From Spirochaetaceae bacterium (lineage in GTDB: Bacteria; Spirochaetota; Spirochaetia; Treponematales; Rectinemataceae), in assembly GCA_026418115.1 (NCBI GenBank), contig JAOABY010000014.1:1-43136 (forward strand): a stretch of 43,136 bases of DNA, written 5' to 3'. This document shows, one piece after another, positions 13,622 to 17,239 of the stretch. The position numbers and the translations under genes are program-made. The stretch's first letter is position 1. Every line of letters begins with the position of its first letter. The notes beneath the pieces were generated by a model that saw nothing but the letters and a program-made list of their open reading frames with translations, made no database searches and was not told the DNA's origin.

Positions 13622-14808
13622 GTGAATTCGGCCCAGGTCTCTTCAAGAAGAGCGCGCTGCCTCTCCTGATCATTCTGGTCATTCTGGCAGGCGGCATTTT
13701 TGCTGCAGCCTCTCTCATCGAAAGTACGAGGATTTCCACCACCATCAAGAAGGAAAAGCCGCTGGCCATTCTGTTCATGTTTGAGTTGCACGGCAAACCT
13801 GCGGTCAATGAGCTTTTTCTCTGGTTTCCCGACAAACGGAAAGCAGCAATGATGGATGTTCCCGGCTCAATGGGCATCATCCTGAAGAGCATGAAGCAGA
13901 TGAACGCAGTGGACACGGTCTACGATCCCCGCCAGCCGGCCAGATTCGTCAAGGAAATCGGATCATACCTTGGGATCGATATACTGGGATGGTTCATCTA
14001 TAACGAGAAGGCATTGTCGGAAACCATCGATCTGGTGGAAGGGATGCCGGTTTTTCTGCCTGAACAGATTCTGCCTGATGAAACCTCTCCCGGAATCAGT
14101 CTGCCGGGAGGAAGCTCCGTGCTGGATGGAGAAAAGACTGTTCAGTATCTGGCATATGTCTGCAAGGATGACAGTTACGCAGAGATGGTTTCCCGCCGGC
14201 AGAAATTTTTCTCATCTTTCCTCGCCAGGATTGCGAAGAACCCTCAGGTGTCCTCCTCAAGCCAGATGGCAGATCTCCTTGCCAGAAAACCATCGAGCAA
14301 TTTCGGAATGGCGGTCCGGAAAGAGCTCATGAAGCGTTTTTCGACGATTGATGCCGACACGATAATGGCACAGCACATTTCCGGTTCGCTTAAGTCCTTC
14401 GAAGGAAGAATGCTGCTGTTTCCGCATTTTGATGGTGAGCTTGCACGTGATGTCATCCAGCAGACGGTCAAGGCGCTTGCCGTTTCCGAGGCACAGCTTG
14501 CAACCAAGGCTGCTGTCACAGTGGAAATTCTGAATGGTTCAGGAGTCAAGGGTATCGGTACCAAGGCTGCCGAGCTGTATGAGAGTTTCGGCTATAGAGT
14601 GGTATCGGTAGGGAATGCACCCCGATTCGATTTTGAACAGACTGTCCTCTATGACAATGATGGTGACAAGACTGTCGCGCAGCAGGCTGCAGAAATTATC
14701 CGCTGCAGACAGTTTGGAGATCCTTCGGATCTTTCCGGAGCGAGAAATGCTGATATCACCATCGTGATCGGCAAGGATTTCAATGGGAGGTATTGCATTG
14801 GAAAATGA
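13618..14808 (+). CDS. Membrane-anchored protein with LytR C-terminal domain
   Basis: Predicted membrane-anchored extracytoplasmic protein, 396 aa. A single N-terminal transmembrane helix (about residues 12-33, ALPLLIILVILAGGIFAAAS) has a basic residue on the cytoplasmic side. The central region (about 50-290) resembles a divergent LytR-CpsA-Psr domain, the fold that transfers glycopolymers to peptidoglycan, but I cannot point to its catalytic arginines with confidence. The C terminus (about 300-390) is a LytR_C domain: VTVEILNGSGVKGIGTKAA, then ESFGYRV. It is coupled to yqeK by ATGA and overlaps the start region of rsfS. A lone LytR_C/LCP protein between yqeK and rsfS looks typical of spirochaetes. 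The function in cell envelope assembly is inferred. Confidence 0.75.
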   Translation: MSEFGPGLFKKSALPLLIILVILAGGIFAAASLIESTRISTTIKKEKPLAILFMFELHGKPAVNELFLWFPDKRKAAMMDVPGSMGIILKSMKQMNAVDTVYDPRQPARFVKEIGSYLGIDILGWFIYNEKALSETIDLVEGMPVFLPEQILPDETSPGISLPGGSSVLDGEKTVQYLAYVCKDDSYAEMVSRRQKFFSSFLARIAKNPQVSSSSQMADLLARKPSSNFGMAVRKELMKRFSTIDADTIMAQHISGSLKSFEGRMLLFPHFDGELARDVIQQTVKALAVSEAQLATKAAVTVEILNGSGVKGIGTKAAELYESFGYRVVSVGNAPRFDFEQTVLYDNDGDKTVAQQAAEIIRCRQFGDPSDLSGARNADITIVIGKDFNGRYCIGK

Positions 14809-15172
14809 ATCTCTGGCCACAGATGTGGCACGGATTCTCGCTGAGCACAAGGCACTGGATGTGGTTCTCCTCGATGTGAGGGAGACGGCAGGGTGGGCTG
14901 ATTACTTCGTGATCGGCACCTGTACCAGTTCAGCCCACATGAAGGGATTGCTCAGGCACCTGGAGGAATACCTTGCATCATTCCATCTAGTTCCTCTGAA
15001 CAAACCCGATCCTGCAGATGATCAGCGCTGGCTGCTGCTCGATCTGGGCACGGTCGTTGTGCATGTGATGACTGCGGAAGCCAGGCAGTTCTACGACCTT
15101 GAATCGCTATGGTTCAAGGCATCAAGAGTGTCGATCGGAGCTTCTGCACCTTCATCGGGGGAAAGCATCTGA
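14798..15172 (+). CDS. rsfS: Ribosomal silencing factor RsfS
   Basis: RsfS (Iojap family), about 124 aa, which binds ribosomal protein uL14 and blocks subunit joining in starved cells. Family blocks are VVLLDVRETAGWADYFVI and a C-terminal WLLLDLGTVVVHVM followed by an F-YDLE-LW stretch. I place the start at the TTG at 14798 (LENESL read as MENESL). The motif GGGAGG at 14785-14790 is 7 bases before it. The in-frame ATG at 14783 lies inside that motif and so is unlikely to be used. It ends the obg-nadD-yqeK unit. Confidence 0.9.
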   Translation: MENESLATDVARILAEHKALDVVLLDVRETAGWADYFVIGTCTSSAHMKGLLRHLEEYLASFHLVPLNKPDPADDQRWLLLDLGTVVVHVMTAEARQFYDLESLWFKASRVSIGASAPSSGESI

Positions 15173-15250
15173 CAAGGCGTTGAAAATTGGAATTGAGACG
15201 TTCGGAATCTGGCTGAATCGCAAGCAATTCCGGATGACCTTCTGTAATGC

Positions 15251-15280
15251 GAGGGGCCGCATGCAGTGATGCGGCCCCTC
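15251..15280. terminator. Perfect 12-bp hairpin between convergent genes
   Basis: The arms at 15251-15262 and 15269-15280 (GAGGGGCCGCAT and its complement) pair perfectly around a 6-base loop. Neither side is followed by a T run. The position between the convergent rsfS and acidic-protein genes suggests a bidirectional transcript end or an mRNA 3' stabiliser, not a standard intrinsic terminator. Confidence 0.5.
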
Positions 15281-15323
15281 GTGACTGGATGAGTTCTCCA
15301 CAGACGATGGGATCTCTCAAGCC

Positions 15324-15540
15324 TCACTCATCGAGATCTTCGCCATAATCAAAGTCTTCGTCTTCGAAGTCGTCCTCATCATCGAAATCTTCATCATCGA
15401 ATTCGTCTTCATCGAAGTCCTCGTCCTCGTCGAAGTCTTCATCCTCGAAGTCCTCGTCCTCGAACTCGTCCTCGTCCTCAAATTCATCCTCGTCCTCGAA
15501 ATCATCCTCATCCTCGAAATCATCGTCAAACGAGGCATCA
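15324..15540. repeat. Imperfect 15/18-bp repeats coding the acidic tail
   Basis: On the plus strand this stretch consists of degenerate TCN-rich units of 15 and 18 bases (for example TCGAAATCATCCTCATCC), each coding one Phe followed by acidic residues. The units are in register with the codons, so unequal recombination or slippage would change tail length without shifting frame. Confidence 0.7.
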
Positions 15541-15653
15541 AAACGGACGGTGGGACGGATCACATATGAGTATTCAGCGGAATCGCCGCTTGGCACAGTT
15601 ATGATTTCATATTCGACAGAAGAATCAGTGGTCACGGTAAGGTTCTGGTCCAT
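15324..15653 (-). CDS. Small hyperacidic protein with Phe-punctuated Asp/Glu tail
   Basis: Unrecognised protein of 109 aa. The first 35 or so residues look like a short beta-rich segment (VEYEIITVPSG, SYVIRPTV). The remaining 70 or so are almost only Asp and Glu, broken by a Phe every 4-6 residues (units such as FEDED, FDDED, FDEDE). A GGGAGG 7-8 bases before the ATG and an upstream promoter-like sequence support a real gene. It stands alone between convergent rsfS and divergent ispE. Acidic tails of this kind occur in DNA mimics, in the delta subunit of Gram-positive RNA polymerase and in some chaperones, but no homology to any of them is visible. The function is unknown. Confidence 0.75.
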   Translation of the reverse strand: MDQNLTVTTDSSVEYEIITVPSGDSAEYSYVIRPTVRFDASFDDDFEDEDDFEDEDEFEDEDEFEDEDFEDEDFDEDEDFDEDEFDDEDFDDEDDFEDEDFDYGEDLDE

Positions 15654-15698
15654 GATGCAGTCCTCCCTGGCTTGGTCTCTTCGTATTGAAGCAGGTGT

Positions 15699-15727
15699 AC
15701 TATTACCGGAAACCTCTTTTGCGTCAA
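15699..15727 (-). promoter_or_regulatory. Putative promoter of the acidic-protein gene
   Basis: On the minus strand TTGACG (15722-15727) is followed after 16-18 bases by the AT-rich TAATAGTA block, with several possible -10 registers. A leader of about 40 bases with a GGGAGG ribosome binding site would precede the ATG at 15653. Confidence 0.4.
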
Positions 15728-15805
15728 TACTCAGGCAAGCAAAATCTAAATGTGCGCAGTAAATCTGTCAACACTAAAAATGCATTTTTTCGACTTCCGG
15801 CAGCT

Positions 15806-15842: not shown

Positions 15843-16790
15843 ATGCAGGGAATGATGGTGCGAGCCTTTGCCAAGCTGAATCTCGGTCTGAGAGTGGGCG
15901 CCCGCCGCAAGGATGGCTTTCATGATCTTGAAGGGATTTTCCAGAATGTATCGATCGAGGATCACCTCGTGGTGAGACTGCGGGAACAGAGAGACATTCT
16001 GATAGAAGGAGAGCTGGGCTGCTCCCCTGAGTCGTCGACGGTGTACAAGGCGGCGCGAATCATGTTTGATCGTCATGCCCCTGGTTTGGGTGCCCACATT
16101 CAGGTAACGAAAGGTATTCCTTCAGGTGCGGGGCTCGGAGGGGCAGGAGCTGATGCCGCTGCAGTGCTTGTAGCGCTCGACAGTCTATTGGGGCTGCATC
16201 TGAGTAAGGATGCTCTCGTGAATATTGCTGCAATGGTAGCGAGCGATGTTCCTTTTTTCATACATGGTGGAGCCTGCATAGTCCGCGGCCGAGGAGAAAT
16301 GATCACACCTCTTCCTGCAAGAACGGATTTTGGTATTGTGCTCGTGCAGCCACCGTGGCACTCCGGGACTCCGGCTGCCTATGCAGCGCTTGATGCAATC
16401 CGTGTCTCACCCGAGGAGTCAAGTGCGCCCTTGGTTGGAGAGCATCAAGCAGCGACGAATGATGCTGTGTTGTCTGAACGATACCGGGGTTCTCTCGCGC
16501 AGTGGCAATGCCAGAATGATTTCCTTCCCGTGCTGCGGGCAATGCATCCTGTCTATGACATCATTCTAAATGCTCTTGCTGGCACAGGTGCAGTGCAATG
16601 CAGTGTGACCGGTTCCGGTGCCTGCTGCTATGGTATCTTCGAGTCGCCGGAGGCCGCAGTCAGAGCAGCAGCGCAGCTCAATGCTCTGCGCAGTATCGAT
16701 CCTCTCCTGGCTGCCATTGTGAGGGATATCCGGGCTCTGGAACCGCTTGCGCGAAGCATGATTGTAAGTTATATTGAAACCAGCGACTAG
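15843..16790 (+). CDS. ispE: 4-diphosphocytidyl-2-C-methyl-D-erythritol kinase
   Basis: IspE, up to 315 aa, a GHMP-family kinase that phosphorylates CDP-methylerythritol in the non-mevalonate isoprenoid pathway. The family N terminus is [12 protein letters not shown]. The ATP-binding GHMP loop is [17 protein letters not shown] (about residues 90-106), and the C-terminal GHMP motif is [13 protein letters not shown]. Three in-frame ATGs lie at 15843, 15852 and 15855. The first fits a leaderless promoter. The other two stand directly behind an AGGGA and would be poorly spaced. It is followed after 23 bases by spoVG, probably on the same transcript. Confidence 0.94.
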
Positions 16791-17135: not shown

Positions 17136-17206
17136 TGGGACGTCGGCAAGCGGTAAGCCTCCGGATTTTGGTTCCGGCATGCGCAGGTTCGAATCCTGCC
17201 GTCCCA
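17136..17206 (+). tRNA. tRNA-Gln (anticodon TTG)
   Basis: A full cloverleaf of 71 bases can be folded. The acceptor arms TGGGACG and CGTCCCA pair, the D arm is GGC/GCC around AAGCGGTAA, and the anticodon stem CCGGA/TCCGG encloses TTTTGGT, giving anticodon TTG. The T arm is GCAGG-TTCGAAT-CCTGC. CCA is not encoded. It lies between spoVG and rplY and is probably processed from the same transcript. Confidence 0.95.
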
Positions 17207-17239
17207 GAGATTGTGACTGAGATGCAAAAGGAGTGAAGT

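Follow-up and report, generated by a model that had tools for sequence, protein, structure and literature searches.

In Bacillota, the delta subunit (RpoE) of RNA polymerase (RNAP) displaces nucleic acids from the enzyme by means of a disordered C-terminal region of 83 amino acids with a net charge of −47 (PMC7749165). In eukaryotic acidic activation domains, acidic residues keep hydrophobic residues exposed, a principle known as acidic exposure (PMC10550315). D/E repeats of eukaryotic DNA/RNA-binding proteins, such as the acidic tail of HMGB1, may act through electrostatic mimicry of nucleic acids (PMC10250230).

We analyzed a 43,136-nucleotide stretch of a Spirochaetaceae genome, hereafter the window, which carries a gene for an extremely acidic protein. 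The tail of this protein resembles that of delta in its acidity, predicted disorder, length (71 versus 83 amino acids), and net charge (about −54 versus −47), whereas the protein has no folded N-terminal HARE-HTH domain of the kind that anchors delta, its N-terminal segment being variable and 38 amino acids long. Pfam searches gave no HARE-HTH match (PF05066) in the protein, in 32 relatives, or in the genome of the window, and across the class the domain was seldom found (5/60 genomes, in most cases within frames longer than 300 amino acids). RNAP delta itself appears to be missing from the genome of the window. As the acidic protein has no HARE-HTH domain, it does not belong to the delta family and would be at most delta-like in action. 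With acidic activation domains it shares the clustering of acidic residues with W/F/Y/L (39-residue tiles of the tail have net charges of −30 to −32 and contain 7–8 W/F/Y/L residues), but it is bacterial, far more acidic, and more regular, and an evolutionary relation is not implied. Pfam and related profile searches detected no DNA-binding domain in this stand-alone protein. Its tail is, like the D/E repeats of HMGB1, an extended run of Asp/Glu with the potential for electrostatic mimicry of nucleic acids, but hydrophobic residues interrupt this run every 2–6 positions, and it belongs to a stand-alone protein.

No Pfam family matched the window protein or any of the 32 relatives, and searches of Pfam, NCBIfam, PADLOC, and PDB revealed no credible relative of the acidic family. 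Weak NCBIfam/PADLOC matches to ZrgA, SepX, and GajA were three single-member hits (E = 0.04–0.6) and were dismissed as chance. The initial annotation, which recognized no described family, was thus right on this point. Literature searches did not find a description of this acidic gene.

The acidic gene and its expression signals

The features of the locus are as follows.

14783..15172, plus strand: rsfS, convergent neighbor and syntenic anchor (TIGR00090 match at 14816-15112; synteny)
15250..15281, no strand assigned: G+C-rich hairpin with a 13-bp stem, in the gap separating the acidic gene from the convergent rsfS and resembling a bidirectional terminator (z = −4.6)
15324..15653, minus strand: acidic protein gene, 109 amino acids plus stop (homologues; pN/pS 0.11–0.13)
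15327..15356, minus strand: C-terminal motif DFDYGEDLDE, a degenerate form of the wider-family consensus DYxDxxDYDDFDE
15327..15539, minus strand: acidic tail, residues 39–109, 76% D/E, interrupted by hydrophobic residues at intervals of 2–6 (AlphaFold)
15540..15653, minus strand: N-terminal segment, residues 1–38, conserved in alignments of the genus
15661..15668, minus strand: Shine-Dalgarno sequence AGGGAGGA, 7 nt ahead of the ATG, kept in 9/9 genus members
15700..15727, minus strand: promoter-like P2, TTGACG-16-TAATAG, in a block conserved in 9 genus members
15743..15771, minus strand: promoter-like P1, TTGACA-17-TAGATT, 10/12 matches (genus conservation; promoter scoring)
15843..16790, plus strand: ispE, divergent neighbor (position and similarity of the neighbor set)

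The start codon ATG occupies 15651-15653 and the stop codon ends at 15324; the initial annotation had placed the gene exactly, leaving the minus strand unstated. A plus-strand frame rich in Ile/Val/Leu/Phe at the same place was rejected as the mere complement of the acidic codons. Overall, the protein carries a net charge of about −58, and no comparably acidic ORF was found elsewhere in the 43-kb window. An AlphaFold model of the single chain had a mean pLDDT of 59.5, a pTM of 0.17, and no secondary structure, suggesting that the protein is probably intrinsically disordered. The N-terminal segment is of ordinary composition; it reads ..EFELITLTxGDSADTIYSLRPTVRFD.. in alignments of the genus and diverges between families to ELALMxV...PFxxFDD.

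Counted from F38, the hydrophobic residues of the tail are 13 F, 1 Y, and 1 L, at spacings of 4, 4, 6, 6, 6, 5, 5, 6, 5, 5, 6, 5, 2, and 4. The variance of these gaps was 1.23, compared to 15.7 in shuffled positions, and none of 2000 shuffles was as even. Family-wide, gaps were more even than in shuffles (p<0.05) in 55/92 members. The initial annotation had described a Phe-spaced Asp/Glu tail; the regular spacing was borne out, but it is not specific to Phe, as F, L, I, and Y interchange between species. The tail DNA is an imperfect tandem array of 15/18-nt units matching at about 72%, and the even spacing may therefore stem partly from unit duplication. Because the codons within this imperfect array are mixed (GAC 16/35, GAG 14/25, and TTC 9/13), the tail appears to be old rather than a fresh product of slippage.

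Comparison among eight other species of the genus gave pN/pS values of 0.13 for the N-terminal part and 0.11 for the tail, the latter being rough since synonymous sites are near saturation. D and E interchange freely within the family. Upstream, TTGACA-17-TAGATT, TTGACG-16-TAATAG/T, and the Shine-Dalgarno core GGGAGG are near-invariant in the genus, whereas the remaining upstream region has diverged. Four promoter-like sites were found versus 0.5 in shuffles; P2 was alternatively scored as a 17-nt variant. A promoter-like sequence and a ribosome binding site had been proposed from the window alone, and both are present and conserved in the eight other species. Comparative sequence evidence thus establishes that the acidic gene is genuine, codes for a protein under selection, and carries expression signals of its own.

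Most relatives have, at the corresponding position, a strong hairpin comparable to that at 15250..15281, and several of these hairpins are flanked by A/T tracts on either side; a T tract was not found at the window copy. The convergent orientation to rsfS, the separate promoters, and the terminator-like hairpin indicate that the acidic gene shares no operon with the ribosome and GTPase genes. The region had been called ribosome- and GTPase-rich, and the neighborhood does hold rsfS, obgE, and rplY. The sole Rfam match in the window was a tRNA gene at 17136-17207, between spoVG and rplY.

Distribution in the class Spirochaetia

To follow the gene in relatives, we used its N-terminus, a profile, and its position. 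A search with the N-terminal 49 residues matched 12/39 relatives, including the genome of the window; apart from one genome, the whole genus was matched, as were three further genera of the family. The profile search detected the acidic protein in 18/30 genomes of the GTDB family. In the remaining genomes, an opposite-strand acidic ORF was found by its position between rsfS and ispE wherever the region was assembled, giving a total of 29/30 genomes; in the exception (G001), neither rsfS nor ispE is assembled.

The positional criterion was an ORF with at least 20 D/E in 40 residues, on the strand opposite rsfS and no more than 700 nt from the rsfS stop codon. By this criterion, an acidic ORF was present at 36/43 loci in the other families of the order (Treponematales), at 27/39 informative loci of the class Spirochaetia outside this order, and in 0/20 cases in other classes of the phylum. 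Loci around obgE in 73 non-spirochaete genomes contained no such acidic protein; in these genomes, however, rsfS does not invariably lie close to obgE. The acidic gene lies on the opposite strand just past rsfS, usually ahead of ispE-spoVG, and the window gene likewise is a D/E-rich opposite-strand ORF directly downstream of rsfS. Most spirochaete families sampled retain the acidic gene in this one place beside rsfS. The protein had been called an orphan, a description that does not hold, as homologues were found by N-terminus, profile, and position across the class. A conserved N-terminal segment was matched in the genus and in other genera of the family, and synteny beside rsfS and ispE extended across the class.

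Family proteins are roughly 70–150 amino acids long with a median net charge of −53. The reading frame is preserved in all members, while tail length varies. Members from eight families (f7, f8, f14, f22, f25, f30, f41, and f43) do not carry the terminal motif and were assigned by position and composition alone. Taken together, sequence and position show an undescribed, extremely acidic family with a fixed place next to rsfS throughout the class Spirochaetia.

The acidic gene was missing beside rsfS at 7/43 loci of the order and 12/39 other loci of the class, which suggests that it is dispensable; absence beside rsfS is not absence from the genome, and the profile search is too weak to tell the two apart. 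These loci include Borrelia-like and Treponema pallidum-sized genomes. An HMM built from the 32-member alignment was uninformative about copies elsewhere in genomes without the gene, since the positive control recovered only 3/20 known carriers. A search for related loci with the family alignment gave no matches, probably owing to low complexity. The conserved family is thus invisible to ordinary homology tools and was found via gene position. Few molecular features of this kind were known for Spirochaetes in a 2013 survey (PMC3726837), and the acidic family would serve as such a molecular marker for one bacterial class.

Several loci departed from the usual arrangement. In two species of the genus, 4–5 kb of inserted DNA carrying a gene for a MarR-like regulator and two ABC-transporter genes (L018:6448-10661 and L019:6701-10933) parts the acidic gene from rsfS, and adjacency to ispE is retained. 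In a Sphaerochaeta-like genome, a short acidic ORF (L232:9407-9682) lies some 4 kb away from rsfS and may be a moved homologue or unrelated. A match in G189, a 40-residue stretch with an internal stop, was dismissed as low-complexity noise. Acidic ORFs with a distinct inner block, SITDEYDEEYLNEEGFxIE, were observed at L226, L227, L241, and L252 (f7, f8, and f22), and possibly represent a subfamily with a different docking motif.

The C-terminal motif and the overlap with rsfS

The C-terminal motif (..LDYDDFDE), defined by the pattern [LIVM][DE][YF][DEN]2[FL][DE], was found in 54/92 members and 21/33 families compared to 0.2% of shuffles. It is degenerate in the genus of the window (DFDYDDDTDE, DFDYGEDLDE) and intact in 17/28 members of the window's family.

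Outside the order, rsfS and the acidic gene converge, and in most families their ends overlap; the overlap measures exactly 22 nt in 13 families and has other lengths in further ones. The stop codon of rsfS falls within the Asp-Tyr codons of the acidic C-terminus, and the 22-nt overlap causes RsfS to end in an antisense-derived SSKSS. Overlap-derived SSKSS was seen at rsfS 3' ends among L225-L264, for example at L237, L239, and L257. RsfS at L259, which lies at a contig end, ends likewise, suggesting that the acidic gene is probably there too.

In Treponematales, including the window, most loci no longer have the overlap, and the two genes are parted by a hairpin. A Ser-rich end imposed by the antisense strand was present in 21/25 RsfS at overlapping loci and in 0/65 at loci without overlap, where 39/65 acidic proteins nevertheless keep the motif. 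These results argue that the acidic motif is conserved in its own right, and we rejected the idea that it is a mere by-product of antisense to rsfS. The mutual constraint with rsfS and the release from it in Treponematales constitute a clean natural experiment on overlapping-gene evolution.

Candidate functions

The most reasonable reading is that the protein is a multivalent binder of basic surfaces, as the initial annotation had suggested; this putative role is strengthened by the conserved charge, spacing, and C-terminal motif. Mutually repelling Asp/Glu residues would keep the regularly spaced Phe/Tyr/Leu "stickers" exposed on a disordered chain. The chain could then dock fuzzily and multivalently onto a core gene-expression machine, at a basic surface that offers hydrophobic pockets; the short segment at the N-terminus and the DYDDFDE box at the C-terminus would provide the specific docking motifs. 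By analogy, binding to a nucleic-acid-handling machine in general has a little less than an even chance of being correct. The single likeliest partner would be RNAP, where the acidic chain might enter the nucleic-acid channel and help to release or exclude DNA/RNA, like the acidic C-terminal region of delta; this RNAP version, also drawn by analogy, is in itself unlikely. A fuzzy multivalent binder is favored, with RNAP as the first candidate, because the tail combines the sticker design of acidic exposure with a delta-like character and delta is apparently missing.

The protein could instead be a chaperone or sponge, a polyanion that shields new ribosomal or nucleoid proteins from non-specific binding to RNA/DNA and hands them on. 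Acidic-aromatic histone chaperones and ribosomal-protein chaperones provide a precedent, the charge, aromatic anchors, and strong conserved Shine-Dalgarno sequence would suit an abundant chaperone, and rsfS, obgE, and rplY are nearby. However, the acidic gene is not co-transcribed with these three genes, and several complete genomes with the same ribosomal proteins lack it next to rsfS; we consider this role doubtful. A simpler buffer of charge, metal, or polyamine, for which the exact partner is irrelevant, would accord with the high median charge and the free interchange of D and E. A pure buffer, on the other hand, would need neither evenly spaced hydrophobic residues nor a C-terminal motif conserved independently of the rsfS overlap, making this explanation improbable.

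Two further readings would make the protein secondary or meaningless. Convergent transcription or the 3' overlap might tune the lytR-rsfS mRNA as antisense, in keeping with the exact 22-nt overlap in 13 families (other lengths in more) and the convergent orientation preserved across the class. This is quite improbable, as the protein remains under purifying selection in Treponematales despite the mostly lost overlap and the intervening hairpin, and as the two species with the 4–5 kb insert have the genes well apart. That the ORF is spurious and without function, as its low complexity and the missing database family might imply, is scarcely credible: frame, N-terminus, C-terminus, promoter, Shine-Dalgarno sequence, and position are conserved, with pN/pS near 0.1, and this conservation refutes the spurious-ORF reading.

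Returning to the multivalent binder, we tentatively propose, as a rather speculative whole, a class-defining and wholly disordered family without a folded domain, docking fuzzily through acidic-aromatic contacts on a gene-expression machine, kept since early Spirochaetia, overlooked owing to low-complexity filters, and ancestrally sharing codons with rsfS in the 22-nt overlap. The family offers a natural test case of whether bacteria use stand-alone acidic-aromatic disordered proteins in the manner of eukaryotic acidic activation domains and D/E repeats. Elsewhere among the loci, an ORF holding an L25-type (rplY) gene (L240:7536-8345) was observed to carry a Glu-rich C-terminal tail of its own.
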